NCBI RefSeq assembly: GCF_028736925.1
Contig: NZ_JAQZAT010000003.1
Coordinates: 186,001 to 250,000, forward strand
Origin: Flavivirga sp. 57AJ16
Lineage (GTDB): Bacteria > Bacteroidota > Bacteroidia > Flavobacteriales > Flavobacteriaceae
Reading direction: 5' to 3'
Length of the DNA stretch: 64,000 bases
Shown: piece by piece, positions 7,365-49,882 of the stretch
Layout: the number at the start of each line of letters is the position of its first letter
Position numbering within the stretch: position 1 is the stretch's first letter
Translations under genes and position numbers: made by a program
Notes under the pieces: generated by a model
The model's database searches: none
Seen by the model: the letters and a program-made list of their open reading frames with translations, nothing else
What the model was told of the DNA's origin: nothing

Positions 7365-7525
7365 GAAGTGATTTAAACTTTTTTGATTGAAGCGAAAAAT
7401 AGTCAATTTTTATTCGTTTTGAAGTCTTTTTTGCACTTCATAGTAGCGTTATGAAGTAATAAAAAGACGAAAAAAGGATGAAAAGGAGCATTTTGCAGCC
7501 AATTGAAAAAAGTTTAAATCACTTC
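7365..7525. mobile_element. 161-bp MITE-like element, class 1, copy A
   Basis: The ends are perfect inverted repeats (GAAGTGATTTAAACTTTT and its complement). The interior holds a second palindrome (GTCTTTTT / AAAAAGAC enclosing CACTTCATA / TATGAAGT). It is flanked by a possible 3-bp target duplication, ATT. It matches 49722-49882 in reverse orientation with about seven differences in 161 bases. It has no coding capacity. The gap 7294-7570 contains nothing else that I can name. Confidence 0.9.
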
Positions 7526-7570
7526 ATTAGTTAAAACTTCGAAGAAAACTTCAAGGATGCAAATTATTAA

Positions 7571-8842
7571 TCACCTAGTGATCAAGGTATTGCCAACTGC
7601 ACATTGTAAACATTTATTTTTGTCGCAATATTCTTTTTTAAGCTGAATAAGCCCTTGTGAATCCAACGCCGATTTTGATAGCTTCTTTAAGCTATTAAAC
7701 GCCTCAATAATACTATTCTTTTCTGAAACAATTGAGGTAGCAGTTTTAATAATATCTGAATTAACCATTTCTCCTTGTTGTTTTGCATAACAGAATTTAA
7801 GAGGAAGAATGGTATTGATTAGCAATAAATCCATAAATGATTTTGTAAGTGTTTTCTTGGATGTTTTTGACTCTTTTTGAAAAGTATAGTGGGTTTCCCA
7901 AAACTTTGATGTTGATACTTTAAATAATTTATAAAAATCATCTAAATGATTCGTTTCTATGATCTTTGAAAATAAATTTTGATGTTCATGATACAAACTT
8001 GCCAATTGAGACAATCTAATAGTTGGAAAATTCGATGGCCGTAACCTAAAAAAGTGGCAGGGCAATACGTGACCATTTTCTAATTTAAACTTCTGTTTTA
8101 AAAATTGATATTCCTTAATCAAATTTAAACAGTAAACCTCTTCAATATCATGATCCAGCAAGCCAGCTTGGCCAAATAATAGTGCTTCTAAGCTCGCCCG
8201 ATTATATCGGGATTTTCTAAGTATTGAAAAATCAATAGATTTTGCCAAGCTAAAAAATGAATCGCCGTTTACTTTAAGTCCAAAATTTTTAGCTACCATT
8301 TTAAACAATACTGCTTCCCAATCATTTTTTGATGCTTTTAAAAGCTGCTCTATCACTTTAGTTTTTCGTTCTAAGCGCTCTAAATACAAACGTTCTAGCC
8401 AATTGTTTAAAACAAAATCATCAATACTTGCAAAATCATGCTCACAATTAATCCATTTGTTTTGTTTTGTAAATAGATTTTTATAATTACTTAAAACATC
8501 TTTACCAATAAAATCTTTTAACTCCAAAGTAGCTATTACAGTACGATCTTTTCTATAAACGTCTGTGTCATGTTCCCAAACTACATGTAAAATAACGTTA
8601 TCATATGCTTTATCTTTTTCGTGGTGGTGTAAAAACCAATCGGATGATTTTACATGAATCTCTACATTTCCTGCCCAAAGCTGTTCACCAACGGTGAGTT
8701 GTGCATTAAAAAAATCTGGTCCAGAGTTTAAGTTATGCTGTCCAACTGTATTAATTACAATGGCTTCCCCCGTTACTGTTTTAAGATGATCTATTTGAAA
8801 TTTTTTGTGTTTCCAGATATAATGTAAAAAATCTTCTTGCAT
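7571..8842 (-). CDS. DUF2851 family protein
   Basis: A 423-residue protein of the DUF2851 family, recognisable from its start (EDFLHYIWKHKKF), the block NSGPDFFNAQLTVG, the histidine-rich HVKSSDWFLHHHEKD and the C-terminal CLQCAVG tail with CxxxxCLQC cysteines. The family is almost confined to Bacteroidota and has no established function. No signal peptide or membrane segment is visible, so it is probably cytoplasmic. It stands alone, separated from the PspC-like gene by a mobile element. Confidence 0.88.
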   Translation of the reverse strand: MQEDFLHYIWKHKKFQIDHLKTVTGEAIVINTVGQHNLNSGPDFFNAQLTVGEQLWAGNVEIHVKSSDWFLHHHEKDKAYDNVILHVVWEHDTDVYRKDRTVIATLELKDFIGKDVLSNYKNLFTKQNKWINCEHDFASIDDFVLNNWLERLYLERLERKTKVIEQLLKASKNDWEAVLFKMVAKNFGLKVNGDSFFSLAKSIDFSILRKSRYNRASLEALLFGQAGLLDHDIEEVYCLNLIKEYQFLKQKFKLENGHVLPCHFFRLRPSNFPTIRLSQLASLYHEHQNLFSKIIETNHLDDFYKLFKVSTSKFWETHYTFQKESKTSKKTLTKSFMDLLLINTILPLKFCYAKQQGEMVNSDIIKTATSIVSEKNSIIEAFNSLKKLSKSALDSQGLIQLKKEYCDKNKCLQCAVGNTLITR

Positions 8843-8982
8843 GCAACTAAAGTAAAGTCACCGTACGTAAATTCCAAATTATATTAAGAAATTACACATA
8901 AAACCATATTGCTTGCTTTATCAAAAAACTGCTAACTTCGTCTCATATTTTATGGCGAGTTACTAAAAATCCAAATTAATTG

Positions 8983-9549
8983 ATGAATAAAATAAGGGAA
9001 CACTTTGAGCAAATCGTAAAATTAAACGACTTAGATTGACACATATTTTCTTCTAAACTAAAAAAAAGTGTCTATAGTAAAAAAGCAACTGTTCTAAAGG
9101 TTGGGGACGTAGAAAACCATCTTTCTTTTGTCGAAAAAGGAAGTCTTCGGTTCTATATCCCAAAACAAGAAAATGATGTCACATTTGGTTTTTGTTTTGA
9201 TAACGGGTTCATGAGTGCCTATGATTCCTTTTTAACAAGAAAACCTAGCACTTACCAAATCGAAACGCTTACCGGTACTACCCTTTGGAGATTAACTTAT
9301 AACGATTTACAGGACATTTATAAAGAAACTGAAGCAGGCAATGTTATTGGTCGAATAACAGCAGAGAACCTTTTTTTGATGAAAACTAAAAGAGAGCAAT
9401 CTTTTTTAAACGAAACGGCAGAAAAGAGATATTTAAATTTATTTGCTGAACGCCCTAATCTAATTAAAGAAATACCTTTAAAATATATAGCTTCATATAT
9501 TGGAATAACTCCTCAAGCATTGAGCAGAATTCGAAAACGTATTTCTTAA
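8983..9549 (+). pseudogene. Crp/Fnr-family transcriptional regulator with in-frame stop
   Basis: Starting at the ATG at 8983 the frame reads MNKIREHFEQIVKLNDLD, hits TGA at 9037-9039, then continues without a break to 9547. The rest has a cAMP-binding-like fold (KKATVLKVGDVENHLSFVEKG, then CFDNGFMSAYDSF) and a C-terminal helix-turn-helix (YIASYIGITPQALSRIRKR). The expected residue at codon 19 is most simply Trp (TGG to TGA). Only a 112-residue C-terminal piece from the ATG at 9211 could still be made, which would lack most of the sensor domain. The downstream DoxX-like gene may have been its target. Confidence 0.82.
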
Positions 9550-9586
9550 CCAATCGTGTGCACACAAATATTAAATAATAAAATTT

Positions 9587-9914
9587 AGACACGAATGACA
9601 CAAATTTACACGAATCCAATGCTATATGGTACGGATTGGATTCAATATTAAAGACAAATTCCTATTATGTAAAAACCTGAAATACATCTATTTAAAGATA
9701 AATTAACGTAAATATTGGATAAGAAAACTTGTGTCAGTTTGAATGATTTTTGCAGAAAACCGTATCGAAAACCAGTCTTCCAACAGGCAAGCAAGTAAAT
9801 TTTCTACTAAAAAACTTCTCGATACACCACGATCATGGCGTGGTACTCGAAGTGACTACTTAACTCTTAAGCAAGATTCACGTTAATTAGTGAAAATTTG
9901 TGTTATTCGTGTCT
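9587..9914. repeat. Composite inverted-repeat element with AGACACGAAT ends
   Basis: The left end AGACACGAATgACACAAATTT is matched by the complement of the right end (AGACACGAATaACACAAATTT). The interior holds a hairpin around 9820-9855 (CACCACG / CGTGGTACTCG). The gap 9550-9967 otherwise shows no gene. The terminal motif resembles repeats common in flavobacterial intergenic regions. Confidence 0.75.
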
Positions 9915-10000
9915 TTTTAAAGATATCTGTACACAGCAGATTTCTTAACCCAGGTTCATTGTTTTGAATGCCAACTTTTAAGAGGTTTGTAAAAAAAAAG

Positions 10001-10456
10001 ATGAAACCTCTTATTATTCTTATTATCGCTTCTGCAATTTCATTATTTACAATAAAAATCATTAGTGAAAAATATGATTTTGCCCTTTCTGCACGTATTG
10101 GCATGTCTGTTATGCTACTTTTTACTGCATTGGGGCATTTTTTATTTACTGAAGGGATGACTTTAATGGTTCCTGAATTAATTCCTTTTAAAAAAGAAAC
10201 GGTTTATTTTACTGCAATTGTAGAAATTCTCGGAGCCATAGGGTTGCATGCCCCTCTGCTCAGGCCGTTAACTTCTTGGCTGTTAATTTTATTCTTTATT
10301 CTCATTCTTCCAGTAAACATTAAGGCTGCAATTGATCATTTGGATTATCAAAAAGCCACTTATAGTGGAAGTGGTTTAAGGTATTTATGGTTCAGGGTTC
10401 CTTTACAGGTCTTATTTATAGTCTGGGTGTATATTAGCTCGATAAAATATCAATAA
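10001..10456 (+). CDS. DoxX-like integral membrane protein
   Basis: About 151 residues with four predicted membrane helices, ordered as in the DoxX/DoxD-like family (ARIGMSVMLLFTALGHFLFT, then FTAIVEILGAIGLHAPL, then WLLILFFILILPVNIKAAI). Such proteins are linked to redox or quinone functions, but no catalytic residue is diagnostic. I prefer the ATG at 10001 (MKPLIILIIAS). An in-frame ATG at 9968 adds eleven basic residues just after repeat DNA. It lies downstream of the broken Crp/Fnr gene on the same strand, a pairing seen in relatives. Confidence 0.75.
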   Translation: MKPLIILIIASAISLFTIKIISEKYDFALSARIGMSVMLLFTALGHFLFTEGMTLMVPELIPFKKETVYFTAIVEILGAIGLHAPLLRPLTSWLLILFFILILPVNIKAAIDHLDYQKATYSGSGLRYLWFRVPLQVLFIVWVYISSIKYQ

Positions 10457-10581
10457 TTCCAAACTTGTTATTAACAACATTTATGCTTAAATGAAAATGG
10501 TTGTTTTGCTAATAAAAAGCCTTTGATAAAGAATTTCTTGAAACGGGCCCTGCCTTGCCAGCCTCGAGGCATTCTTTTTTA

Positions 10582-12321
10582 TTAAATGGCTTTTATGTTA
10601 TAAGCCTCGCCATAAGATTTTAGTAATTTGTACAATTCTTCAGGATTAAAAGGTTTCCCCATAAACCCATTCATTTTATATTGTTCTGTTTTCTTTTTGA
10701 TATCGATCTGAGCAAAAGCTGTTAAAGCAATTATTGGGATACTTGCTTTACTTTCGTCCTCCCATTCTCTAATCATTTTGGCTGCCTGATAACCATTTAT
10801 CTTTGGCATTTGTAAGTCCATAAGTATGAGGTCGTAGTCAAATTTTTCAAATAGTTTTAATACTTGTTCTCCATTTTCTGCAACCGTGTATTTAACTCCC
10901 CATTTATTGAAGAAACGTTTAAGTATGAGCACATTCATTTTATTATCTTCGGCAACTAGCACGTTTATGTTAATAGGTTCATAGTCTGGTTGCATTTTAA
11001 TCATATCTGGTTCATAAATGTTCAGTCTGTTACTTACTTTATAAGTAATTTCAAAGAAAAATGTCGAACCTTTACCCAGTTCGCTTTCAACGACCAGATC
11101 ACTACCCTGGAGGTTTAATAATTTTTTGCTTATCGACAATCCTAGGCCAGTACCTCCATACTTTATGGAAGTTTCAGAATTTGCCTGCATGAAACTTTCG
11201 AAAATAGATTCTTGTTTGTTTTTAGAGATCCCTATACCTGTATCTATGACTTTAAAAACAAGTTTTACTTTATTTTCTTTAATGCCCAAATTTTTAACGC
11301 TAAGGTTGATACACCCATTTTCGGTAAACTTTAAGGAATTACTCAATAAATTCTTAATTATTTGAGTCAATTTTAATTTATCCCCAATAATATTATCCGG
11401 CACATCATTTTCCTTAATAACATTGAAGATTAAACCTTTTTTTTCTGTTCTTAAACTAAAATGGGACTTTACACTTTCCAAAAAATAATTTAAGCTAAAA
11501 TCCTTTTCAACAAGTTTTAATTTACCGGATTTTATTTTATCAAAATCCAACAAATCGTTTATTAGTCCCAATAAATGTTCTCCAGAATATTTTAATGCTT
11601 TTAGGTTTTCCAACTGATGTGGCAGATGATCTTCCATTAATAAAATATTAGCTAATCCTGTAACGGCATTTAAAGGTGTTCTTATTTCATGGGACATGGT
11701 AGATAAAAATTCGTCTTTTGATTTACTCGCCTTCTGTAGTTCTATTTCTGTCTCTTTTAGATTTGTTACGTCTATAATCGTTCCAATAAAACCTATTGAA
11801 ACCCCATCATGGTCTTTAATAAGTTTAGATTTCACCTCAAACCACATGACCTCACTACCTCTTTTGTTCTTAAATATGAACTTAACATGCTCTTTTTCTT
11901 TGGAAAACAGATCATCAAACCGTTTAAACCCCTCTATATTTTCTCCATGTAAAAAGATTCTAAAACTTTTTCCCAAAGCATAATTAACAGGAATTCCAGA
12001 ATATTCTGTCCATGCATTATTTAAAAAAGTAAAATTCCCATCAAGATCTGTCTTAAAAAGCACCCCTCCAATATTGTCAACAATACGTTCTAATTTTCTG
12101 TTAACATTATCTCTTTCTTTTATTAATCCCTTATTGGCCACAAACAATTCCTTAGAACTTTCTTCAAGAATATTTTCAATGTGTTTTAAATCTTTATCAA
12201 AGCTTTTATAAGCATCGTTAACCATATTAAAAAAACTGATAAAATCCGGATTCTTGGAAGTGTCCAATCCTGTTTTTTTTAGCTGACGTTTTAGTAATCT
12301 ATGGTAGTCTTTATTTAACAT
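10582..12321 (-). CDS. Hybrid sensor histidine kinase (PAS-HisKA-HATPase-REC)
   Basis: A 579-residue cytoplasmic kinase without membrane segments. In order: coiled-coil lead (about 35-80), PAS domain (about 75-190), HisKA with phospho-acceptor H211 in STMSHEIRTPLN, HATPase_c (N box KNLLSNSLKFT, G boxes DTGIGIS and YGGTGLGLSI) and a receiver domain with D502 in LILMDLQMP and K556 in GKPF. As it lacks its own input across the membrane, the signal probably comes from the FIST protein whose gene overlaps it by seven bases just upstream. No separate output regulator is encoded nearby, so the phosphorelay must continue elsewhere. Confidence 0.93.
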   Translation of the reverse strand: MLNKDYHRLLKRQLKKTGLDTSKNPDFISFFNMVNDAYKSFDKDLKHIENILEESSKELFVANKGLIKERDNVNRKLERIVDNIGGVLFKTDLDGNFTFLNNAWTEYSGIPVNYALGKSFRIFLHGENIEGFKRFDDLFSKEKEHVKFIFKNKRGSEVMWFEVKSKLIKDHDGVSIGFIGTIIDVTNLKETEIELQKASKSKDEFLSTMSHEIRTPLNAVTGLANILLMEDHLPHQLENLKALKYSGEHLLGLINDLLDFDKIKSGKLKLVEKDFSLNYFLESVKSHFSLRTEKKGLIFNVIKENDVPDNIIGDKLKLTQIIKNLLSNSLKFTENGCINLSVKNLGIKENKVKLVFKVIDTGIGISKNKQESIFESFMQANSETSIKYGGTGLGLSISKKLLNLQGSDLVVESELGKGSTFFFEITYKVSNRLNIYEPDMIKMQPDYEPININVLVAEDNKMNVLILKRFFNKWGVKYTVAENGEQVLKLFEKFDYDLILMDLQMPKINGYQAAKMIREWEDESKASIPIIALTAFAQIDIKKKTEQYKMNGFMGKPFNPEELYKLLKSYGEAYNIKAI

Positions 12322-13445
12322 TCTGAAAGTGTTGTTATAGTCATTGTTTGATTATGTAATTCGCAAGGTGAAAACTCTCCAAAAGGAGCAATTTCCCCAT
12401 AAGAATAAAACCCCGTAATACTTGGTTTATCTCCTATTATTTCTCTTACTGCTTCTACTTCTTCTTCAACCATTTGCTTTAGAACCAAACGGCGTCCCAC
12501 ACAACTGATAAGAATGGCCAATTCGGATTTTTCTTCCTGTTCCTTATTAGCATCGACCGCAGAATCAGCAGCACCATTTATTAACCTATCAATATTTGCC
12601 TTCATTAAACGTGCATAAGACCCTTCTGGAATATTACCAGCAAACGTTAAACTTTGATCTTCCTCATTTACAGCTAAAATGGTTCTAACAATTGGTAAGG
12701 AATCTTTATCTGTTCGCACACTTAAAGGGAATAATAGCCCTGAACTTGGTAAGTTATCTGCCTCTTTTCCTAAAAATGATTTATATAATTCCAACGCTGG
12801 TAATCCATCTAATTCGTAAAGAACATTTTTATCTGATTTAGTTACCAAACGATCTATACCAAAACTGTCCCACCCTCCTTTTGAACTAAAGCCCACTTTT
12901 AAATGCTCTCCATAAAAACCTAAAGCAATAATGGTTTTATCTACTATCTTATTATTATCAATAACAAATGTTTTATTAAAGTTAGAGCCATCTGCGGCTA
13001 ATCCTCCTGTTATGCTAATAGCATCGGGAATTGCCGATTTTAAACCCAATACTAAATCGGCTCCATTAACATTAAGCCCATCACTTAAAACAAGTATATG
13101 CCGTAGATCTTCATTATAAAGATCTTCTGCTAGGTACTGTCCCGATTTATAGCTACAATCCATATCAATAACTTCTATGGATGATTTTTTGGAAGTAACT
13201 TTGTCTAGTTGTATTGCTGTTAAAGATATAGTCCCATCTTTTACCGTAACATTTGATATTTCTCCTGCAGTTGAACATCCAATTATAGTGGCATCGGGAT
13301 ATTTATTATTTAAGAAATCCAACACCTCTTTTTTAGGGTTAAAATCAGGAGATACAAAAAGTAGACAGATATTGACCTCGATATTTAAAACAGAAACACC
13401 TTCTTGCCAATTATCCTGTTGTAGGGATATTTGTTGAACGTTCAT
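12315..13445 (-). CDS. FIST sensory domain protein (FIST_N plus FIST_C)
   Basis: A 376-residue soluble protein consisting of FIST_N (about 25-215, including ATIIGCSTAGEIS and HILVLSDGLNVNGADLV) and FIST_C (about 225-360, ending in SITGFYSYGEIAPFGEFSPCELHNQTM). FIST domains are thought to bind small ligands such as amino acids and usually feed signalling proteins. Here the gene overlaps the start of the hybrid kinase by seven bases, so the two are translationally coupled and form a split sensor and kinase. The ligand is unknown. Confidence 0.92.
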   Translation of the reverse strand: MNVQQISLQQDNWQEGVSVLNIEVNICLLFVSPDFNPKKEVLDFLNNKYPDATIIGCSTAGEISNVTVKDGTISLTAIQLDKVTSKKSSIEVIDMDCSYKSGQYLAEDLYNEDLRHILVLSDGLNVNGADLVLGLKSAIPDAISITGGLAADGSNFNKTFVIDNNKIVDKTIIALGFYGEHLKVGFSSKGGWDSFGIDRLVTKSDKNVLYELDGLPALELYKSFLGKEADNLPSSGLLFPLSVRTDKDSLPIVRTILAVNEEDQSLTFAGNIPEGSYARLMKANIDRLINGAADSAVDANKEQEEKSELAILISCVGRRLVLKQMVEEEVEAVREIIGDKPSITGFYSYGEIAPFGEFSPCELHNQTMTITTLSEC

Positions 13446-13694
13446 ACCTAATATTTAATTAATAATTCAGGATAGATACACTTAATCGTTAAAAAAGTGC
13501 ATTTCATCGAAATTATGACAAAATTTGGTATAAACAAAATTTTTAATAAAGTTTTTAACTACAAGGGTTTACAGAAAAAACATAAAACACAAAACAAAAA
13601 GTACGTAAAGCCTTACTAATACTGAATAAAGCGTAAAAAAATTCTAAATATTTTATTCAGAATTTTATTTTATAATCTATTTCTATAACACCAC

Positions 13695-15053: not shown

Positions 15054-15176
15054 AGTATAAATTTACTAAAAAGTTTATTATTTATTATGTTATCGATTGT
15101 AATGGTTCCCTAATTATAAAGCGTTGCTCCACGCATAAAATAGTTTCTGAAAGGGAATTTAAAATATTAGTAATTC

Positions 15177-17719: not shown

Positions 17720-17751
17720 ATCATTATATATTTTGGAGCACTCAGGAGCTT

Positions 17752-18624
17752 TTATTCTTCTATGGAAGCGGTTGGTTTTCTATATTTCTGAAACGGTTGT
17801 TTCAATAAATCCTTAATATTACTATTCTCTTTTTCGTCTGGAAAAACATCAACCCCATAAATAATTTTATCGGTATCCAGTTTCATATACGTCCCGAAAA
17901 GCCGATCCCAAACAGAAAAGATATTTCCGTAATTAGAATCTGTATAGGGCAACTTATGGTGATGGTGTACTTTATGCATATCTGGAGAGACAATAATGTA
18001 GCTCAGCAAATTGTCTACCTTCTTAGGTAACTTAATATTCGCATGATTAAATTGCGTAGCCACAACGGACAACGACTGATATAGCATAACTAGAGCAATT
18101 GGCGTACCGATAATAAATATTCCCATAAGCGTAAAAACATAACGAATTAAGCTTTCTAAGGGATGATGCCTATTGGCAGTCGTTGTATCAACATGATGAT
18201 CTGAATGGTGTACTAAATGTACCATCCACAATGGTTTCACTTTATGTTCTATTAAATGTGGTAAATACGCGCCTATACCATCTATTAAAAAGATTCCTAA
18301 AATACCGTATAGACCTATGGGCATTTCCGGAAGCCAATTAAGTATCCCAAAATTATTGGCCATTACCCAATCTGATGCTTTTAAAAATATAAAGGCTAAA
18401 GGAAGGTTTACGAGTATGGTTGTTAGTGTAAAGAATATATTAGGTATCGCATGTTGCCATTTTTTATAGCTAACCCCAAATAAAGGCACCATACCTTCAA
18501 TAATCCAAAAGACGGTCAATCCTCCAACTATAATAATACCTCTATGTAACGAAGGTATTGTCTCAAAATAATTTAAAATAGCTTCCAATAGAATATTTTT
18601 ACTAAATATACTTAATGAACTCAT
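17752..18624 (-). CDS. Sterol desaturase/fatty acid hydroxylase family membrane protein
   Basis: About 290 residues with four to five membrane helices and the eight-histidine di-iron motifs: HLIEHKVKPLW, HLVHHSDHHVD, NRHHPLE and HKVHHHH. Related bacterial enzymes hydroxylate or desaturate lipids; the substrate is unknown. An ATG at 18663 gives 13 extra residues (MQKGNFYPIIKVW), but those codons lie inside the left arm of a class 1 element. The ATG at 18624 (MSSLSIFSKN) is therefore the more likely original start. The element supplies the whole upstream region. Confidence 0.85.
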   Translation of the reverse strand: MSSLSIFSKNILLEAILNYFETIPSLHRGIIIVGGLTVFWIIEGMVPLFGVSYKKWQHAIPNIFFTLTTILVNLPLAFIFLKASDWVMANNFGILNWLPEMPIGLYGILGIFLIDGIGAYLPHLIEHKVKPLWMVHLVHHSDHHVDTTTANRHHPLESLIRYVFTLMGIFIIGTPIALVMLYQSLSVVATQFNHANIKLPKKVDNLLSYIIVSPDMHKVHHHHKLPYTDSNYGNIFSVWDRLFGTYMKLDTDKIIYGVDVFPDEKENSNIKDLLKQPFQKYRKPTASIEE

Positions 18625-18775
18625 CCAAACTTTTATAATTGGGTAAAAATTGCCCTTTTGCACCCATTTTTTGTCTTTTTTTTATTCCGTAGCGATGCTA
18701 TGCAACTCAAAAAAGTCTTCAACTGGTTACATAATGACTAATTTTTGCTTCAATCCAAAAAGTTTAAACGAGTTC
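18617..18775. mobile_element. 159-bp MITE-like element, class 1, diverged copy
   Basis: The ends GAACTCATCCAAACTTTT and AAAGTTTAAACGAGTTC are inverted repeats. The middle shows the nested palindrome (CCGTAGCGATGCTATG). Internal segments align with copies A and B (AATTGG, then GTCTTTTT). It overlaps the start of the desaturase gene on one side and ends exactly on the stop codon of the YkgJ-type gene on the other. Confidence 0.8.
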
Positions 18776-31016: not shown

Positions 31017-31154
31017 GAAGTTATCTTGACTTTTTGAGAAAAAATTGGGATTTTATCCTTATAAGAAAAGTTTTAGAGTTTCGTAGTATCCCTATGAAGC
31101 AATAAGGTATAAAAGCGTATTTTGCAGCTAATTAATAAAAGTTTAAATCACTTC
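31017..31154. mobile_element. 138-bp degenerate class 1 element
   Basis: The left end GAAGTTATCTTGACTTTTTG resembles the 49466 copy, and the right end AAAGTTTAAATCACTTC resembles copies A and B. The middle palindrome (TTTCGTAGTATCCCTATGAA) is kept, and about 23 bases are missing. It lies just upstream of the capsule gene at 31186. Confidence 0.7.
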
Positions 31155-41411: not shown

Positions 41412-41574
41412 ATACCAATTATGAATTAAAATGAGCTACAGAAAACGACATTGCTTATTTGTTTTTGCCTGCTGCGTGTTATTTGCATAGCCTAAGCTAT
41501 GGAAATGAGGAGTAAAGTGATAAAACGAATTAATGAATGTGTTTGAATTGCGTATTTTAATTCATAATTGGTAT
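41412..41574. mobile_element. 163-bp inverted-repeat element, class 2, copy B
   Basis: The ends ATACCAATTATGAATTAAAA and the complementary right end are inverted repeats. The interior hairpin is CATAGC-ctaa-GCTATG. It matches 20325-20489 in the opposite orientation. The gap 41279-41615 contains no gene. Confidence 0.87.
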
Positions 41575-41615
41575 TAGTTGCTTGAAAATGTAAGAAATAG
41601 TATGTAGCTATAAAG

Positions 41616-41852
41616 CTATGTTTTTTTCTTCGTCAATAAATAATATAAATTAATACAAAATATAGCTATATTCGTTATTATAATTGGCATGGAAGTAGGA
41701 TCTAACAGTATGCCATAAAACACAAATAGTAAACATCCCAAGGAGTTTACTATTCGTAATTGATTAACAGATTTCATTAAGAATGAAATTAAAACAGTCG
41801 CCATAGCAGCATATCCCATCCATTCTACACCAGAAATTCCAAAGAATGCCAT
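41616..41852 (-). CDS. Small three-helix membrane protein
   Basis: A 78-residue protein with three membrane helices (about 10-25, 32-48 and 53-72), one followed by the motif SLGCLLFVFYG. It resembles YgjV/SWEET-like small membrane proteins that occur widely in Bacteroidota. Its stop and start geometry places it one base from the typA gene, so it is probably cotranscribed with it. Function is unknown. Confidence 0.65.
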   Translation of the reverse strand: MAFFGISGVEWMGYAAMATVLISFLMKSVNQLRIVNSLGCLLFVFYGILLDPTSMPIIITNIAIFCINLYYLLTKKKT

Positions 41853-41853
41853 C

Positions 41854-43653
41854 TTACACCATTTTATTTCGTTTACGCTCTACTTCTGTTAAATAGACTT
41901 TACGCAACCTTAAATGATTTGGTGTCACCTCAACGTATTCATCTTTTTGAATATATTCTAAGGCCTCTTCTAGCGAAAACTTAATCGCGGGTACAATTTT
42001 AGCTTTATCATCTGCTCCAGATGAACGTACATTACTAAGCTTTTTGGTTTTTGTTACGTTTACCGTCATATCATCGCCACGAGAATTTTCTCCAATAACC
42101 TGCCCTTCATAAATATCTTCACCCGGGTCTATAAAAAACTTACCTCTATCTTGTAGTTTATCAATAGAATAAGGAATAGCTTGTCCTTTTTCCATAGATA
42201 CCAAAGAACCGTTTTGACGCTCAGGGATACCTCCTTTTAACGGTTGGTATTCTTTAAAACGGTGTGCCATAATGGCTTCACCTGCGGTAGCAGTTAATAA
42301 TTGATTTCGTAAACCTATGATACCTCTGGAAGGCACTATAAATTCACAGACCATGCGATCTCCTTTTGCTTCCATGCTAAGCATTTCACCTTTTCTTAAG
42401 GTAACCATTTCAATAGCTTTTCCAGAAACCTCTTCTGGCAAATCAATAGTCATCTCTTCTACGGGTTCGCATTTTACACCATCAATCTCTTTTATAATGA
42501 CTTGTGGTTGGCCAATTTGCAATTCGTAACCTTCGCGGCGCATCGTTTCTATTAAAACGGATAAGTGCAATACACCACGACCAAATACCATAAATTTATC
42601 TGCACTATCAGTTTCTTCAACACGTAATGCCAAATTCTTTTCCAACTCTTTTGTTAAACGATCTTTTATATGACGAGAAGTAACATATTTCCCATCTTTA
42701 CCAAAGAAAGGCGAATCGTTAATAGTAAATAACATACTCATGGTAGGCTCGTCAATAGCAATGGTTTTTAAGCCCTCAGGTGCTTCCCAGTCCGCAACCG
42801 TATCACCAATCTCAAAACCTTCTAATCCAACAATAGCACAAATATCTCCCGCTTGTACTTCTTCTACCTTCTTACGTCCTAGACCTTCAAAAGTATGTAG
42901 TTCTTTTATTTTAGATTTAACAATACTTCCATCGCGCTTGACCAAAGATATATTTTGTCCAACTTTTAATTCACCACGGGTTAAACGTCCTATAGCAATT
43001 CTTCCTGTGAAAGAAGAAAAATCTAAAGATGTAATTAACATTTGAGTAGTGCCTTCTTCAATTTTAGGTTCAGGAATGTGGTTTATAACCATATCCAATA
43101 ATGGCTCTATATTTTCCGTTTCATTTTGCCAATCATCGCTCATCCAATTGTTCTTTGCAGAGCCATAAACTGTAGGAAAATCCAACTGCCACTCTTCTGC
43201 TCCCAACTCAAACATCAGGTCAAAAACTTTTTCATGTACCTCATCGGGCGTACAGTTTTCTTTATCAACTTTATTTACAACTACACAAGGTTTTAAACCT
43301 AGGTCAATCGCTTTTTGTAATACAAAACGTGTTTGTGGCATGGGCCCCTCAAAAGCATCGACTAATAGTAAAACACCATCTGCCATATTTAATACACGCT
43401 CTACTTCACCTCCAAAATCGGCGTGACCAGGTGTATCAATAATATTAATCTTTGTGTCTTTATAAATTACGGAAACGTTTTTAGAAGTAATTGTAATACC
43501 TCTTTCACGCTCCAAATCATTATTATCAAGAATTAAATCACCTGTGTTTTCGTTCTCGCGAAACAACTGACAATGATACATAATCTTATCAACCAAGGTC
43601 GTTTTACCATGATCTACGTGAGCAATAATTGCAATGTTTTTAATATTAGCCAT
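41854..43653 (-). CDS. typA: Translational GTPase TypA/BipA
   Basis: A 599-residue GTPase of full length. G1 is AHVDHGKTTLVD, G2 lies around RERGITITSKN, G3 is DTPGHADFGGEV, G4 is NKVDK and G5 is GSAKN. EF-G-like domains follow (elongation factor domains II, III and V) and the BipA-specific C-terminus. TypA acts on the ribosome in 50S assembly and stress, notably at low temperature. A TACATTTG -7 box lies 24 bp upstream. Confidence 0.97.
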   Translation of the reverse strand: MANIKNIAIIAHVDHGKTTLVDKIMYHCQLFRENENTGDLILDNNDLERERGITITSKNVSVIYKDTKINIIDTPGHADFGGEVERVLNMADGVLLLVDAFEGPMPQTRFVLQKAIDLGLKPCVVVNKVDKENCTPDEVHEKVFDLMFELGAEEWQLDFPTVYGSAKNNWMSDDWQNETENIEPLLDMVINHIPEPKIEEGTTQMLITSLDFSSFTGRIAIGRLTRGELKVGQNISLVKRDGSIVKSKIKELHTFEGLGRKKVEEVQAGDICAIVGLEGFEIGDTVADWEAPEGLKTIAIDEPTMSMLFTINDSPFFGKDGKYVTSRHIKDRLTKELEKNLALRVEETDSADKFMVFGRGVLHLSVLIETMRREGYELQIGQPQVIIKEIDGVKCEPVEEMTIDLPEEVSGKAIEMVTLRKGEMLSMEAKGDRMVCEFIVPSRGIIGLRNQLLTATAGEAIMAHRFKEYQPLKGGIPERQNGSLVSMEKGQAIPYSIDKLQDRGKFFIDPGEDIYEGQVIGENSRGDDMTVNVTKTKKLSNVRSSGADDKAKIVPAIKFSLEEALEYIQKDEYVEVTPNHLRLRKVYLTEVERKRNKMV

Positions 43654-43676
43654 AATGGTGCCTTATTTTAAGCGTG

Positions 43677-43684
43677 CAAATGTA
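43677..43684 (-). promoter_or_regulatory. Bacteroidota -7 box for typA
   Basis: The minus strand reads TACATTTG (TAnnTTTG), 23 bp before the typA start codon. No distinct -33 element is visible. Confidence 0.5.
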
Positions 43685-43891
43685 ATTATAAATAACGGAT
43701 AAATTATCTAATAATTTTTTTTTGGATGTTCCTTCTTTGTAAAATACAAAAATACAGTATGATTCACTGTATCTTTCTTATTTTTAATTTGTTAAAAACA
43801 AGAAAAAGCACTGTCTCAATTTCTAATATATACACTTAAAAATATTTTTACCTCAATTTAAAAGATGTACACATTAATTCGGCATTAATAG

Positions 43892-43899
43892 TATCTTTG
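43892..43899 (+). promoter_or_regulatory. Bacteroidota -7 box for kdsA
   Basis: TATCTTTG, an exact TAnnTTTG match, lies 29 bp before the ATG at 43929. A transcript starting about seven bases later would make the TTG at 43914 a poor start. Confidence 0.55.
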
Positions 43900-43928
43900 C
43901 ATCATATTTTTTTTTGAAACAAAGGCAT

Positions 43929-44747
43929 ATGACGCTTCTAGATATCCCTAAAATAAAACATACTAATTCAAACAATTTTTTCTTGCTTTGTGGTCCATGT
44001 GCTATCGAAGGCGAAGATATGGCACTTCGTATTGCCGAAAAAGTAATTACAATTACTAATAAGCTAGAAATCCCCTATGTTTTTAAAGGTAGCTTTAAAA
44101 AAGCCAACCGAAGCAGAATTGATAGTTTTACAGGGATAGGCGATGAAAAAGCGCTTAAAATACTTCGGAAAGTTTCCGAGACATTTAATGTCCCTACCGT
44201 TACCGATATACATGAAGTTTCAGACGCTGCCTTTGCAGCCCAATATGTTGATGTATTACAAATCCCAGCCTTTTTAGTACGCCAAACAGATTTGGTAGTG
44301 GCTGCCGCTAAAACCGGTAAAGTTGTCAACTTAAAAAAGGGACAATTTATGAGCCCGGAGGCTATGAAACATGCCGTACAAAAAGTTAAGGATGCAGGTA
44401 GCGATAAAGTGTGGATAACAGACCGAGGCACTATGTTTGGTTATCAAGATATGATCGTTGATTTTCGCGGTATTCCTACTATGCGTCAATATGCTCCAAC
44501 TGTTTTAGATGTTACACATTCTTTACAACAACCTAACCAAAATGCTGGTGTAACAGGTGGTAGACCAGACATGATTGAAACTATTGCCAGAGCTGGCATA
44601 GTTAATAATGTAGATGGTTTATTTATTGAAACCCATTTCGATCCTGCAAATGCAAAAAGTGATGGCGCCAACATGTTACACTTAGATAATTTAGAAAAAT
44701 TACTTACTAATTTAGTCGCCATTAGAAAAACCATTCAATCACTCTAA
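43929..44747 (+). CDS. kdsA: 3-deoxy-8-phosphooctulonate synthase
   Basis: About 272 residues, the normal KdsA length. It condenses PEP with arabinose 5-phosphate to Kdo-8-phosphate for lipopolysaccharide. Signatures are FLLCGPCAIEGED, VFKGSFKKANRSR, WITDRGTMFGYQD, VTHSLQQPNQNAGVTGG and FIETHFDPANAKSDGANM. I use the ATG at 43929 (MTLLDIPKIKH); an upstream TTG at 43914 would add five residues but sits only 15 bp after the -7 box. A hairpin with a T-run follows. It stands alone as a housekeeping gene outside the polysaccharide island. Confidence 0.96.
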   Translation: MTLLDIPKIKHTNSNNFFLLCGPCAIEGEDMALRIAEKVITITNKLEIPYVFKGSFKKANRSRIDSFTGIGDEKALKILRKVSETFNVPTVTDIHEVSDAAFAAQYVDVLQIPAFLVRQTDLVVAAAKTGKVVNLKKGQFMSPEAMKHAVQKVKDAGSDKVWITDRGTMFGYQDMIVDFRGIPTMRQYAPTVLDVTHSLQQPNQNAGVTGGRPDMIETIARAGIVNNVDGLFIETHFDPANAKSDGANMLHLDNLEKLLTNLVAIRKTIQSL

Positions 44748-44769
44748 TTTTTTACAATCAAAAAAAAGT

Positions 44770-44818
44770 AAAAACTTTTTAAGGAATAGACTTTTATTTC
44801 TTCAAAAGGTTTTTTTTA
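44770..44818 (+). terminator. Likely terminator after kdsA
   Basis: A stem of AAACTTTTTAAGGAA with TTTCTTCAAAAGGTTT (some G-U pairs) is followed by a T-run. It lies between kdsA and the barrel gene at 44840. Confidence 0.6.
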
Positions 44819-44839
44819 TAAATCAATTAAAAAACATTA

Positions 44840-45700
44840 ATGAAAGTTACCCCAATCAAACTTATAATATTTTTTATTTTAAGTATTCTGTCCCAAAATG
44901 GATTCGCTCAAAAAAATGATACTCAAAAATACACAGCATCTAATAAAGGTAAAATATTTATTAGTTGGGGAGGTAATAGAGAATCTTATTCAAAATCTGA
45001 TATTAGATTTAAAGGTGAAAATTACGATTTTACTATAAAGGATGTTTCTGCCAAAGACAAACCCAAAGGTTGGCATATAGATTACATCAACCCGACAAAA
45101 ATTACAATTCCTCAAACCAATATAAAGATTGGTTATTTTATCTCAGACAAATACATTATTTCTCTTGCTGTAGACCATATGAAGTATGTAATGAATGACA
45201 ATAGAAATAAAGTTCTTGATGGTTATATTAATTTACCAAATACTGAAACAGGAAGTATATATAATGGAAATTATGATAATGAAGATTTTTTTGTATCAAA
45301 AGATTTCTTAGTATTTGAACACACAAATGGTTTAAACTATGTTTACGCAGAATTTTCGAGATTTGACGACATTTCTTCAATATTTAATGTTCATAATACC
45401 GATAAGTTTCAGCTTAACATTACCGAAGGTATCGGAGCAGGTATTTTGTATCCAAAAACGAATACAACACTGCTTCAAAAAGACAGGTATGACGAGTTTC
45501 ATTTAGCCGGTTATGGTGTATCGTTCAATGCTGGCCTAAACCTTATATTTTTTAAGCACCTTTTCATGGAATTAGATTTAAGAGGTGGTTATATTGATAT
45601 GCCAGATATAAGAACGACCAGTAATACCACAGAAAGTGCATCGCAGCATTTCCTTTATTTACAGCGGGTCATTTCTATTGGCGGTATTTTTAAAATTTAA
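44840..45700 (+). CDS. Outer-membrane beta-barrel protein, unknown
   Basis: A 286-residue exported protein (signal peptide about 1-23, ending SQNGFAQ). Many amphipathic strands end in GGIFKI, with sequence such as NIKIGYFISDKYIISLAVDH and LDLRGGYID. It looks like a small outer-membrane barrel. I recognise no specific family. The neighbouring genes give no clue to function. Confidence 0.65.
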   Translation: MKVTPIKLIIFFILSILSQNGFAQKNDTQKYTASNKGKIFISWGGNRESYSKSDIRFKGENYDFTIKDVSAKDKPKGWHIDYINPTKITIPQTNIKIGYFISDKYIISLAVDHMKYVMNDNRNKVLDGYINLPNTETGSIYNGNYDNEDFFVSKDFLVFEHTNGLNYVYAEFSRFDDISSIFNVHNTDKFQLNITEGIGAGILYPKTNTTLLQKDRYDEFHLAGYGVSFNAGLNLIFFKHLFMELDLRGGYIDMPDIRTTSNTTESASQHFLYLQRVISIGGIFKI

Positions 45701-45821
45701 ATAATCTTATTGGTCGAGATAGCTAAATTTACTTATATAGCTTTTAACTCAGATTATGCGATAGAACGTCGTTATGAGCCCCGAAACCTAAATAAATACT
45801 GGCACTTTCTTAATTTTAACA

Positions 45822-45982
45822 TATAGCTAAATCTATATAAAATGGCATAGAATATTTAGAAATAAAAAATTGAAGTTCAAGGCAAAAAGCGTAGGCATAG
45901 CCTAGTTACGGTGAGTATTTTTAACGAAGAAATTCGGTTTTTTAGTCTGAAGGTCATGTTATTTTATATAGATTTAGCTATA
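45822..45982. mobile_element. 161-bp inverted-repeat element, class 3
   Basis: The perfect 22-bp terminal inverted repeat starts TATAGCTAAATCTATATAAA. The length equals that of class 1. The middle contains a small palindrome (AGGC-ata-GCCT). The gap 45701-46095 (395 bp) otherwise shows no gene; a partial TAGCTAAATTT motif at about 45719 could be a relic of another copy. Confidence 0.85.
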
Positions 45983-46095
45983 GTACATATCCTTATGGAG
46001 AAATTCAAAAATACAACGAAGCGATAGTATTTTCAGTGGTTTCTGAATATAATAGATTTTCGTTTGTATAATCTAAGTTTAACTATTTAGTTTAG

Positions 46096-46536
46096 CTAAA
46101 TAAACCAAGCCTTTTTGCTTTTGCTTAATAAGTTTGAAGCTTCATGCAATAACTCAATGAAATTTTCATGATCTAAATCTTCGAGGGTTTTCAACTGAAT
46201 AGAACGTACCTGTTTTCGTTTATTATTGTTCTTTAAAATAGGGAATTGTTTTTCCAACAACACACCTTGTACAAAAGCAACATCGACATAATCTTTACCT
46301 TTTAGGATATTTAGATAAACCATAGGTTTTTTCCCAATATTATAAAACGGAATTTTATAACTGTACCGCTCTTCTACTTCGGGAAGTGTATTTAGTATAA
46401 CACTTCTAACATAAAGCATGATAGATTGATAAGGTTCTTTTTGATTTAAAAAATACGCGTCTACAGGTTTCAATATTTTAATAGGTTTTAATCGAAAAAA
46501 ATTCCTCGAGATGCTGCCGAGGATCGTTCGTTTCAA
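46096..46536 (-). CDS. DUF1801 (YdhG-like) protein
   Basis: A 146-residue small soluble protein with the DUF1801 pattern (YRSYKIPFYNIGKKP-like region YSYKIPFYNIGKKPMVYL, then VDVAFVQGVLL). The family has a simple alpha/beta fold and no clear function. The N-terminal 20 residues before KPVDAYFLNQ are not typical of the family, so the true start could be further in, at a non-ATG codon. Confidence 0.75.
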   Translation of the reverse strand: MKRTILGSISRNFFRLKPIKILKPVDAYFLNQKEPYQSIMLYVRSVILNTLPEVEERYSYKIPFYNIGKKPMVYLNILKGKDYVDVAFVQGVLLEKQFPILKNNNKRKQVRSIQLKTLEDLDHENFIELLHEASNLLSKSKKAWFI

Positions 46537-46653
46537 GAAATTATTTTGTTGAACTCACTCAAACTTTATCAATTAGCAAAAAAGTTTAACCGAATACAAT
46601 TACAAATTCAAACTTAACAAAAATTTATGATGCCCGTTTAAAAATAATTTACT

Positions 46654-46672
46654 TACTTTGTATTTCAAAGTA
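46654..46672. promoter_or_regulatory. Palindromic operator candidate before the 203-residue membrane gene
   Basis: TACTTTG-tattt-CAAAGTA is a 7-bp perfect inverted repeat, 7 bases before the ATG. A near copy precedes creD at 47738. Both are followed by CTTTTA. Confidence 0.6.
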
Positions 46673-46679
46673 CTTTTAC

Positions 46680-47291
46680 ATGGAACCAAAAGATTATTTA
46701 AAAGACATAAGCGAGATAAAGGATTTAATGAATAAATCCTCTCGCTTTATTTCGCTTAGTGGTTTATCTGGAATATTAGCAGGTATTTATGCCCTAGTAG
46801 GCGCAGCCATAGCCTATTGGTTGGTTATGGAATATAGTAACGGCACTTTAATATTAGATGGCAAAATATTTAGATTGGTTATGCTAGACTTGTTCTTGAT
46901 CGCACTTTTAAGTGCCATTACCGGAATCATTTTAACGACAAGAAAGGCTAAAAAAAATGGGGCCAATATTTGGGACAGCTCATCGCGTCGCCTAGTAATA
47001 AACTTTTTAATTCCCTTAGTAGTTGGTGGTATTTATATATTAATTATACTAGGAAGGCAAAAATATGGGCAAACCGGTGCTTTAATGCTTTTGTTTTATG
47101 GGCTAGCTTTAGTAAATGCTTCTAAATATAGTATTGGTGATATTCGTTATTTAGGTTTTATACAAATTATTTTAGGCTTAATCTGCGCTTGGTTTCCTGG
47201 ATATGGATTTTGGCTTTGGGTTCTGGGCTTTGGGGTTATGCATATTGTTTATGGGACTTGGATGTATTTTAAGTATGATGTTAAAAAGTAA
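46680..47291 (+). CDS. Six-helix membrane protein of the HTH_34/CreD module
   Basis: A 203-residue inner-membrane protein with about six helices (e.g. SLSGLSGILAGIYALVGAAI, WFPGYGFWLWVLGFGVM) and a short charged N-terminus. I know no functional name. It regularly precedes a small winged-helix regulator and CreD in Bacteroidota, as here. It shares a TACTTTG/CAAAGTA palindrome with creD, so these genes are probably one regulon. The function may be in envelope stress. Confidence 0.72.
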   Translation: MEPKDYLKDISEIKDLMNKSSRFISLSGLSGILAGIYALVGAAIAYWLVMEYSNGTLILDGKIFRLVMLDLFLIALLSAITGIILTTRKAKKNGANIWDSSSRRLVINFLIPLVVGGIYILIILGRQKYGQTGALMLLFYGLALVNASKYSIGDIRYLGFIQIILGLICAWFPGYGFWLWVLGFGVMHIVYGTWMYFKYDVKK

Positions 47292-47390
47292 ACAGTCTAT
47301 CTGTCCCAGTTTTCAGTCACTTAGAATTTAAAAAATAATAGTTGACTTTACATTAATTTTATAAAAACACATCAACAAATAAACATTAGT

Positions 47391-47684
47391 TTGAGTATTA
47401 TTACCAACATAAATAAAGTATTTGATCACAGAATTAGATTGGGCATTATGTCTATTTTAATGGTGAATGAATATGCAGATTTTAATATGTTAAAGGAGTT
47501 ATTGGGAGCTACAGATGGCAACTTAGCAAGCCATACAAAAGCTCTTGAAAAAGCTGAATATATAAAAGTTGAAAAGCAATTTATAGGAAGGAAACCTAAC
47601 ACACGCTACAGCACCACCAAATTAGGAGAAGCAGCATTTAAAAAACATATTAACGCCCTCGAAAAATTAATTAATAAACAATGA
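47391..47684 (+). CDS. Winged-helix transcriptional regulator (HTH_34 type)
   Basis: A 97-residue one-domain DNA-binding protein: helix VFDHRIRLGIMSILM, recognition region TDGNLASHTKALEKAEYI and wing RKPNTRYSTTKLGEAA. It begins with TTG at 47391 (SIITNINKVFDHRI); no suitable ATG precedes the domain. The TGA stop overlaps a short palindrome. It probably controls the upstream membrane gene and creD through the shared CTTTG-N5-CAAAG site. Confidence 0.87.
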   Translation: MSIITNINKVFDHRIRLGIMSILMVNEYADFNMLKELLGATDGNLASHTKALEKAEYIKVEKQFIGRKPNTRYSTTKLGEAAFKKHINALEKLINKQ

Positions 47685-47703
47685 TTCCTGCGTAGGCAGG
47701 AAT
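47684..47703. repeat. Short palindrome ATTCCTGC-gtag-GCAGGAAT on a stop codon
   Basis: A perfect 8-bp stem. Its first base is the last base of the TGA stop of the winged-helix regulator. It is related to 19530 and 20255. Confidence 0.8.
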
Positions 47704-47737
47704 AACAAAAAACGACACTTAAAATTTTTTATTTACA

Positions 47738-47756
47738 AGCTTTGAAATTCAAAGTA
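47738..47756. promoter_or_regulatory. Palindromic operator candidate before creD
   Basis: The stretch containing CTTTG-aaatt-CAAAG, then TACTTTTA, lies 17 bp before the creD ATG and matches the site before 46680, including the flanking TACTTTTA. Confidence 0.6.
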
Positions 47757-47772
47757 CTTTTAAAACATCATT

Positions 47773-49149
47773 ATGGAACATACAAACAAACAGCAACAAA
47801 ACAAATTCGGACATTGGATAAAAACTTCAATTACGGCAAGAATGCTCATGGTTGGTTTTTTAACACTTGTTTTATTAATCCCCCTTTTCTTCATAGAAGA
47901 TGTCATTAGAGAACGGGCAAATAGGCAAACTGAGGTAGTAAACGAAATTAACCAACAATGGGGAAACGAAGTACTTATCTACGGCCCTATTTTAAAAATC
48001 CCTTATAAAATCTATAAAGAAAAGACGGTTACTGATAAAAAAACAAAAAAGGTTTATACAGAAACTATTGAAGAAATTCATAATGCTTACTTCTTTCCTG
48101 AAAAACTAAATATTGATTCGAATATCAATCCCGAAACAAAAAAACGAGGCATTTATACTACAGCTGTTTACAATAGCAAGATAAATATAACTGGCGCCTT
48201 TATTAAGCCCAATTTTAGTGAAATCGAAATTAATGACCAAAACATTATTTGGGACAAGGCTAAAATTATTATACAATCCTCTAATGTAAAAGGTGTGAAT
48301 GAAGCTAAATTAAAGTTGAATCAAACCAACTATGAGCTTTCATCTAGATATAATGATCGGAAAAGTCACAATTATAATGAAATAACACTTCATACGTTAG
48401 AAACTAAAAACATAAACAAAGAGCCATTATTGTTTCGAAAACCTTTAAGTTTTAACATTGATTTTAACATTAAAGGAAGTGAGCAGATCCGTTTTGTGCC
48501 TACGGGCAGGCAAACTGAGGCTCAAATAACTTCTAACTGGAAAACGGCAAACTTTTTTGGAGGTTTTTTACCTTTTAACGACAATAAGATAAACGACGAT
48601 GGTTTCCATGCACAATGGAAGATTTTAGATCTTAACAGGCCCTTCTCGCAACAACATTACAATGGTATCCCGGACTTAAAAGAATTTGCTTTTGGGGTAA
48701 ACTTTATGATCCCCATAGATGAATATCAAAAAAGTGAACGCTCGGCGAAGTATGGCTTTCTTGTTATAGGTTTAACTTTTCTTATTTTCTTTTTAATTCA
48801 AACTTTAAGCAAAATAAACATCCACCCTTTCCAATATTTAATGATTGGGTTAGCGCTTACCATGTTTTATACCCTCTTGGTTTCCATTTCCGAGCATAGT
48901 AACTTCCTAAAGGCATACTTAATAGCTGGCATTTCTGTAATAGCTTTAATAACCCTATATTCAAAATCTATATTAAAGACCCTTAAATTCCCATTATTTA
49001 TAGGCCTTTCCTTAACAGCCCTATATACATTTATCTATGTTATTATTCAATTAGAAAACTATGCCCTCTTGGTAGGTAGCCTTGGTCTTTTCTTAATATT
49101 GGCTGTAGTCATGTTTGTATCCAGAAAAATAGACTGGAATCAAGGTTAG
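47773..49149 (+). CDS. creD: CreD-family inner membrane protein
   Basis: A 458-residue protein: a first helix (about 22-42), a large periplasmic domain (about 45-325) with the CreD block FRKPLSFNIDFNIKGSEQIR-like region (shorter here in quote: LSFNIDFNIKGSEQ), FVPTGRQTEAQITSNW and ANFFGGFLP, and then five to six C-terminal helices beginning SAKYGFLVIGLTFLIFFLIQ. In Enterobacteria CreD is induced by CreBC in response to envelope or beta-lactam stress. Here it is paired with an HTH_34 regulator in place of CreBC. Confidence 0.92.
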   Translation: MEHTNKQQQNKFGHWIKTSITARMLMVGFLTLVLLIPLFFIEDVIRERANRQTEVVNEINQQWGNEVLIYGPILKIPYKIYKEKTVTDKKTKKVYTETIEEIHNAYFFPEKLNIDSNINPETKKRGIYTTAVYNSKINITGAFIKPNFSEIEINDQNIIWDKAKIIIQSSNVKGVNEAKLKLNQTNYELSSRYNDRKSHNYNEITLHTLETKNINKEPLLFRKPLSFNIDFNIKGSEQIRFVPTGRQTEAQITSNWKTANFFGGFLPFNDNKINDDGFHAQWKILDLNRPFSQQHYNGIPDLKEFAFGVNFMIPIDEYQKSERSAKYGFLVIGLTFLIFFLIQTLSKINIHPFQYLMIGLALTMFYTLLVSISEHSNFLKAYLIAGISVIALITLYSKSILKTLKFPLFIGLSLTALYTFIYVIIQLENYALLVGSLGLFLILAVVMFVSRKIDWNQG

Positions 49150-49286
49150 TCTACCATTTTATGATACTATTGAGCGTTTCCTCAAAGAAATTTGGGGACA
49201 CGCTTTCCTTAACACCTTTTTTATGTCAAGTTTATGCGAATACCTTAAAAGGCTCACATTTCAATCACTAATACAAAAAGGGTATC

Positions 49287-49721
49287 ATGCATAGTTTAAT
49301 AACAACCAGTAAATCAATAGCTCTTTTGAGTTTTGTTATTGGCACTATACTATTTGCCATTCAATTATACTTTGGGAGTACTCAATTAATTTATATTGGA
49401 GTTGTATTTGTTATTGTTGCTACTATAATTAATACTATATTATTTATTGCTCTCATAGTTACAATGAACTCATCTTGACTTTTTGTGTTTTACCGAAAAT
49501 GAGATAAAATTTGTCCAGATGAGGCACTTTTAGAAAAGCATAGCATCGCTACGGTTAAGAAAAGTAACAAAATATGGACGGATTTTAGCCATTTTTTAGG
49601 AAATAGTAAAAGTCAAGATGAGTTCAATGTTAAATAGTTCAAAAAACAAATTAGAGTTAGCTAAAACCTGCGGAATTATCATCTTAAATATTCCAATAGC
49701 CGCACTATATTTCTATGTGTT
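49287..49721 (+). pseudogene. Small membrane-protein gene split by a class 1 element
   Basis: The N-terminal part (49287-49465) encodes MHSLITTSKSIALLSFVIGT and further helices up to IALIVT. Then a 161-bp element (49466-49626) intervenes and the frame hits TGA at 49476-49478. After the element the sequence encodes MLNSSKNKLELAKTCGIIIL and on to ALYFYV. With the element and one AAT copy removed, the two parts join in one frame as IVTMLNSSKNK, giving a three-helix protein of about 91 residues. The final stop comes from the next element, which starts at 49722. A 63-residue truncated product is still possible. I do not recognise the family. Confidence 0.85.
49466..49626. mobile_element. 161-bp MITE-like element, class 1, inserted in a gene
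   Basis: The ends GAACTCATCTTGACTTTT and AAAAGTCAAGATGAGTTC are perfect inverted repeats. It is flanked by a 3-bp direct duplication, AAT. The length equals copies A and B. The middle carries the GCATAGC-atc-GCTACGG palindrome. It interrupts a membrane-protein gene. Confidence 0.92.
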
Positions 49722-49882
49722 GAAGTGATTTAAACTTTTTTCAATTGGCTGCAAAATGCTCCTTTTCATCCTTTTTTTGTCTTTTTATTACTTCGTAACG
49801 CTACTATGAAGTGCAAAAAAGGCTTCAAAACGAATAAAAACAAGCTATTTTTCGCTTCAATCAAAAAAGTTTAAATCACTTC
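49722..49882. mobile_element. 161-bp MITE-like element, class 1, copy B
   Basis: Termini are identical to copy A (7365-7525), orientation is opposite, and identity over the full length is about 96%. It is flanked by a possible 3-bp duplication, GTT. The first bases (GAAGTGA) supply the stop codon of the broken upstream gene. It ends 15 bp before the DUF2809 gene and so forms its upstream region. Confidence 0.92.

Follow-up and report, generated by a model that had tools for sequence, protein, structure and literature searches.

Five short repeats in a 64,000-nucleotide stretch of the genome of Flavivirga sp. 57AJ16 (NCBI RefSeq assembly GCF_028736925.1, contig NZ_JAQZAT010000003.1, positions 186,001 to 250,000 of the forward strand; hereafter the window) are probably non-autonomous miniature inverted-repeat transposable elements (MITEs) with IS5-type ends and an interior hairpin under selection on one strand. 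That the element is a MITE follows from its ends, small size (about 160 bp), target duplications and lack of any gene; it is present in many copies, and none holds an open frame for a transposase. From the sequences we infer that the copies are mobilised in trans by an IS5-family transposase, and that the central hairpin is selected as RNA, not as single-stranded DNA. A first-pass annotation had described the five repeats as a family of nested palindromes; its observation of the five copies was confirmed and its interpretation is supported, with the amendments given below. The copies are denoted c1 to c5, and G158 is a related, complete genome that carries a candidate helper insertion sequence (IS).

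7365..7525, + strand: copy c1, 161 bp, GAAGTGAT ends, ATT duplications at 7362-7364 and 7526-7528; the putative RNA strand is +
7365..7383, + strand: left terminal repeat of c1, 19 bp, the same sequence as at the left end of the G158 helper IS
7405..7490, + strand: central hairpin of c1, approximately model columns 41-126 (borders approximate), the region of strand-specific pairing constraint
18617..18775, - strand: copy c2, 159 bp, GAACTC ends, 3-bp duplication not intact
31017..31154, + strand: copy c3, 138 bp, shortened internally, duplication not intact
49466..49625, + strand: copy c4, 160 bp, GAACTCATCTTGAC class, AAT duplications at 49463-49465 and 49626-49628
49722..49882, - strand: copy c5, 161 bp, GAAGTGAT class, GTT duplications at 49719-49721 and 49883-49885
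49287..49901, + strand: small membrane-protein gene, interrupted by c4, with c5 cutting it close to its end

All five copies lie where they had been annotated, except that the end of c4 had taken in one flanking A; two copies (c1 and c5), not three, are therefore exactly 161 bp long. The two copies described as about 96% identical in opposite orientations are c1 and c5, the former matching the reverse complement of the latter at 95.7%. The GAASTSAT ends hold with two exceptions: c3 departs from them on the left (GAAGTTAT) and c2 on the right (GAACTCGT). The 3-bp duplications proposed for the three best copies are all exact, and no such duplication was found in the flanks of c2 and c3. Folded as single-stranded DNA, c1 and c5 are far more stable than their shuffled sequences (z -7.6 and -5.8, respectively).

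The copies are mobile, because 3-bp duplications flank most of them and c4 interrupts a gene which relatives have intact. Among 63 end-defined copies, identical 3-bp flanks were found at 33 of the 44 from the 57AJ16 genome and at 11 of the 19 from other members of the genus (two of the latter, L037 and L045, share their flanks and represent one insertion), while seven shifted offsets used as a control gave 0 to 3. This count is free of any choice between overlapping candidates: 63 of 118 candidate pairs were kept, the remainder being excluded by the end criteria or for lack of an orientation. When the flanks of c4 are joined, an open frame runs across the junction, and the frame of the membrane-protein gene is open once c4, c5 and one copy of each duplication are removed. 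Uninterrupted homologues of this gene exist, for example in genomes G017 (67% identity, residues 1-92) and G010 (56%, residues 1-93), while in the 57AJ16 genome the match falls in two pieces. As c4 splits the gene, we also considered that it might be a removable intron, and dropped this idea, there being no indication of splicing. Relatives of c1 at separate places are 96-97% identical, which suggests a recent spread of the element.

The family is large. The structured-element claim of the annotation would have failed had the genome held these five copies only. A covariance model based on 34 copies, used for this genome and for the family-wide search, gave 120 matches, which fall at 92 separate places of the 4.9-Mb draft (E up to 1e-3, E-values being rough). 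Forty of these places measure 158-162 bp, and the others are shorter, longer or truncated. Allowing at most one mismatch, the end pattern occurs 80+99 times genome-wide, versus 1+10 for the reversed control. A DNA search detected relatives of the element in 10 of 11 genomes of the same genus; of 25 other genomes of the bacterial family, 2 gave weak matches, and of 23 genomes from the rest of the order, none gave a match. With the model, it was found in 27 of 149 family genomes and 26 of 148 genera (57AJ16 and its genus counted), two of the 27 having only matches of about 2e-5. The count for 57AJ16 scored 150 of 8620 first-look candidates and that for the 149 genomes used stricter filters, so that both may be low. 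A pattern scan of named genomes yielded 10 stretches, from Aquimarina, Flaviramulus, Galbibacter and uncultured Flavobacteriaceae, all belonging to the Flavobacteriaceae; nine of them hold a 160-bp end pair, and in seven of these nine the flanking triplets are equal.

The length of the element is nearly fixed. Among the out-of-genus model matches listed, 115 of 130 measure 158-162 bp, although this list favours full-length matches; the spacing of exact inward end pairs, judged without the model, is a fairer measure. Such pairs are 158-162 bp apart in 17 of 19 cases in genome G001 and in 26 of 32 in G158, where five of the other six bound the helper IS (26 of 27 without the IS). At gathering score, no Rfam model matches the element; the only such match in the window is a transfer-messenger RNA gene (53179-53574, tag GENNYALAA), and at the elements of eight loci only plant microRNA models appeared, all under their own gathering scores. 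A literature search found no paper on this element family. Very short derivatives of 34-85 bp that keep both ends were also seen (L058:2096, L161, L163, L164, L169 and L171), and may have arisen by deletion through the palindrome; the one in L058, of 34 bp, has TAT on both flanks. Sixteen stretches around partial matches in relatives turned out to be remnants, short derivatives and one ordinary copy.

The annotation had called for a transposase elsewhere and an IS with the same termini, and such an IS is present in G158. There, five pairs of element ends lie 913-929 bp apart and bound an IS of about 928 bp encoding one transposase of about 277 amino acids (broken in copy L180); 3-bp duplications flank three of the five. 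The transposase scores 119.8 bits against the NCBIfam IS5 model NF033580 (cut-off 110) and passes the Pfam cut-offs for DUF4096 (PF13340) and DDE_Tnp_1 (PF01609). At 1e-20, related proteins were found in 10 of the 149 genomes, and in eight of these ten same-type end pairs (at most 3 mismatches) surround the transposase, the exceptions being G066, without ends, and G155, with one end only. In three of the five IS copies one end is GAAGTGAT and the opposite end GAACTCAT, and both flavours occur in elements; the ends of L177 are GAAGTGAT and GAAGTCAT, and those of L180 are GAAGTCAT and GAACTCAT, with CTTGAC following as it does in class-B elements. The left ends of the IS and of c1 have their first 19 bases in common, only 3 bases agree at the right ends, where the flavours differ, and c4 shares 8 bases with the other end of the IS. 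Because little beyond the ends of about 19 bp is common to both, the element is, by sequence comparison, not a simple deletion of the helper IS. By eye, an inverted repeat GGGTTGC...GCAACCC is visible just upstream of the transposase start in one IS copy (L176, 498-1425); L177 has it too, and L180 has an altered version.

Several candidate helpers were examined and set aside. In the 57AJ16 genome, a scan of 33 stretches where zero-mismatch ends stand unpaired or far apart gave no helper; eight PF01609 hits and three PF00665 hits (none of the latter over the cut-off) were checked for element ends, again yielding no helper. One-mismatch ends were listed in part, so that this end-based search might overlook a helper whose ends are worn. 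Two candidates looked promising, and neither is a helper: L103, a class-B remnant with an IS4-like gene inside it (family name given by eye), and L109, an end pair of G001 spanning 4.2 kb.

As for the interior, the annotation had proposed a second palindrome at the centre and selection for the hairpin. Conserved pairing, the absence of which would have refuted this claim, is indeed found there. Compensating double changes occur in 23 of 48 consensus pairs, the structure being taken from the same alignment as the test; 221 cells are double-changed, versus 76 with shuffled partners, and the covariation score is 0.401, versus 0.155 with shuffled partners and 0.06-0.13 with slid ones. Every covariation measure falls when partners are slid by 1-3 columns. 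The number of pairs with a double change is less striking (23 versus 19.9, 3 of 500 shuffles being as high).

Covariation alone could stem from DNA symmetry, and strand specificity was therefore tested. In RNA, G pairs with U and A does not pair with C, and on the opposite strand the two swap. Pairs were chosen by their Watson-Crick fraction only and orientation was set by a sequence motif. The test comprised 73 copies, namely 50 of the 63 end-defined ones (13 lying outside 150-166 nt) and 23 of 26 others (L146, L150 and L157 being left out for ambiguous orientation), reduced to 32 representatives less than 88% identical and drawn from at least 12 genera. In the central hairpin of these representatives, G-U outnumbers A-C by 52 to 12 cells (p 5e-7, cells not being independent), and by 16 to 2 when columns are counted (p 0.001). 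A first count of 268 G-U versus 28 A-C cells was discarded in favour of this one, because 51 of its G-U cells, in one column, hung on an arbitrary pairing choice. The motif-defined strand folds into the more stable RNA in 72 of the 73 copies, among them 22 of the 23 added afterwards, and had done so in 62 of the first 63. Among private transitions, those at pairs make G-U more often than A-C (30 versus 12, p 0.008), whereas those at unpaired sites are balanced (30 versus 29), which argues that the strand bias is not a mutation bias. The central palindrome thus stands as a region of conserved pairing, whose strand-specific constraint suggests RNA over a symmetrical DNA palindrome. Likewise, the annotation was right that the interior is constrained; its contrast with a plain MITE goes too far, the element still being a MITE by its ends, size, duplications and lack of a gene.

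Other repeats were seen within the elements. In five 160-bp elements (L059, L061, L062 and L065 of 57AJ16, and L116 of G007), the apex hosts another palindromic repeat with ends CAATGTCATTAAG...CTTAATGACATTG, most of these loci having been fetched for carrying element ends; in L061, the apex 9-mer AGCATCGCT stands on both sides of it. Loci L008 and L016 have a similar repeat core within a similar palindrome (AGCCTAGTTACGG). It looks as if the CAATGTCATTAAG...CTTAATGACATTG repeat targeted such hairpin tips. A 23-bp non-palindromic insert (TACCCAGTCAAGCTGAGCACATG and variants) occupies the same left-arm spot on the putative RNA strand at 10 of 10 loci, covering both end classes and two species (L011, L018-L022, L028, L031 of G003, L064 and L083), and a GC-rich palindrome (CCTGCCTGCCGGCAGGCAGG and variants) lies at about the same right-arm position in L006, L008, L009, L010, L011, L058, L078 and L084.

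A number of observations weigh against selection of an RNA hairpin in a mobilised element, and we gather them here and in the next paragraph. Strand bias is absent from the mid arms (G-U 10 versus A-C 14) and from the terminal repeats (18 versus 12); as these parts are paired without such bias, the RNA reading is limited to the centre. It might then be asked whether the elements are plain MITEs, of which the ends alone matter and whose arm symmetry results from template switching or gene conversion within the palindrome. Ends, duplications and a helper IS are enough for mobility, very short derivatives with both ends exist, and the unbiased arms fit; however, correction within a palindrome should be strand-symmetric, contrary to the ratio at the centre, and lengths cluster at 158-162 bp. 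We regard this explanation as improbable. Two further points concern the fold itself: young copies (95% identity) give G-U 5 versus A-C 2, too few to speak for selection after insertion, and an A-C mismatch at the apex (columns 75/87, 49 of 58 rows) is a G-U pair on the opposite strand. Moreover, single-stranded DNA of one strand would likewise prefer G-T over A-C. The hairpin could accordingly act as folded single-stranded DNA in transposition or replication, in the manner of integron attC sites; the strand bias is compatible with G-T tolerance in one DNA strand and the arms are palindromic. IS5-type DDE transposases, however, work by a double-strand mechanism, which is what the 3-bp duplications and the type of transposase suggest here, and the bias is confined to the centre, none being seen at the ends, on which a recombinase would be expected to act. 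This possibility appears quite unlikely to us, and selection as RNA remains the reading we prefer.

The helper and the expression of the element raise the other difficulties. With the G158 transposase as query, the 57AJ16 genome gave no match at 1e-10, and among 11 congeners the search detected one broken copy and no other helper; near-identical copies imply recent movement, yet no helper was found in the genome that holds them. The copies of 57AJ16 may therefore be stranded, or their helper may be unassembled or too different. IS and element occur together in only 4 of the 149 genomes (p 0.08), and G066, without ends, is one of these. The left arm was scored for a promoter with a Bacteroidetes-type motif: on the putative RNA strand the score is above all 500 shuffles, while 133 of 500 reach that of the opposite strand. 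Since the best -7 box starts with TA in only 3 of the 32 representatives, and since the copies are homologous, so that shuffles overstate the signal, this is only a hint of a left-arm promoter. Finally, complementarity of the element RNA to the IS mRNA showed no excess over shuffles.

The position of the elements relative to genes bears on who benefits from the hairpin. The host might keep hairpins as mRNA elements, such as terminators, RNase III sites or stabilisers: for over half of the copies the neighbouring open frame on each side is no more than 100 bp away, the right-hand frame is mildly co-directional (55 versus 31 of 86, p 0.013 uncorrected, 87 copies being examined), and 17 of 32 representatives have T-runs of at least 5 after the centre, versus 10 of 32 on the opposite strand. 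Against this, the left-hand frame is evenly oriented (42 versus 43), 23 of the 87 copies are antisense to both neighbours, and T-runs are absent in 15 of 32; we hold such a host function to be unlikely. Any bias in orientation to genes is weak at best, which disfavours a function linked to one particular adjacent mRNA and makes a role at the level of the element most likely.

We therefore favour an element whose IS5-type ends and one-strand hairpin serve the element itself, and which would work as follows. An IS5-family transposase would recognise the ends of about 19 bp (GAASTSATYYWRACTTTTT), make the 3-bp target duplications and move the elements in trans. The interior would be a conserved module, unlike a decayed IS. 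Its two arms of about 40 bp, each made of a terminal repeat and the adjoining part, would be under symmetric constraint as double-stranded DNA, while the central hairpin of about 80-85 nt, with its conserved apex CAUAGC-nnn-GCUACGG, would be selected for folding on one strand. Most likely, this hairpin would be transcribed from a putative left-arm promoter or by read-through, and would act in stability, processing or the regulation of mobility rather than on neighbouring genes.

How does this element compare with known systems? Like IS5-family MITEs, it is short and geneless, with the terminal inverted repeats and target duplications of a transposase-encoding IS; unlike them, it shares little beyond its ends of about 19 bp with the IS found, and has an interior hairpin of near-fixed length constrained on one strand. 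Like REP/REPIN-RAYT repeats, the elements are abundant intergenic palindromes. REP/RAYT repeats insert without target duplication, whereas our elements have 3-bp duplications and share their ends with an IS5-type IS. Going by published descriptions and not by sequence, Correia/NEMIS and ERIC are likewise mobile palindromic repeats whose transcripts fold, RNase III cutting those of Correia (PMC10969869); as far as these descriptions go, what sets our element apart is covariation over at least 12 genera with a strand-specific centre. QMITE1 and QMITE2 of Coxiella burnetii are MITEs reported to express small RNAs where a copy sits behind a promoter or supplies part of one (PMC5896051); in our case the RNA is predicted from sequence, and the structure is conserved across genera. 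Folding MITE transcripts, their cutting by RNase III and small RNAs from MITEs are thus already published (PMC10969869, PMC5896051). Our literature search found no MITE with a near-fixed-length interior conserved over many genera and one-strand covariation.

A more tentative proposal, which we consider possible without favouring it, is that the element is a small-RNA gene made mobile: a pair of IS5-type ends would have captured a left-arm promoter and a structured RNA of about 80 nt, and spread as a fixed 160-bp cassette through the family, the RNA being needed for persistence or movement of the element. MITEs are generally viewed as pairs of ends around sequence that can be dispensed with; here that sequence is conserved and bears an RNA-like, one-strand pairing signature in representatives of at least 12 genera. 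If the proposal is true, this would be a transposon family with a structured RNA as its sole cargo, and would offer a natural system in which to ask whether RNA structure aids the survival or movement of a non-autonomous element.

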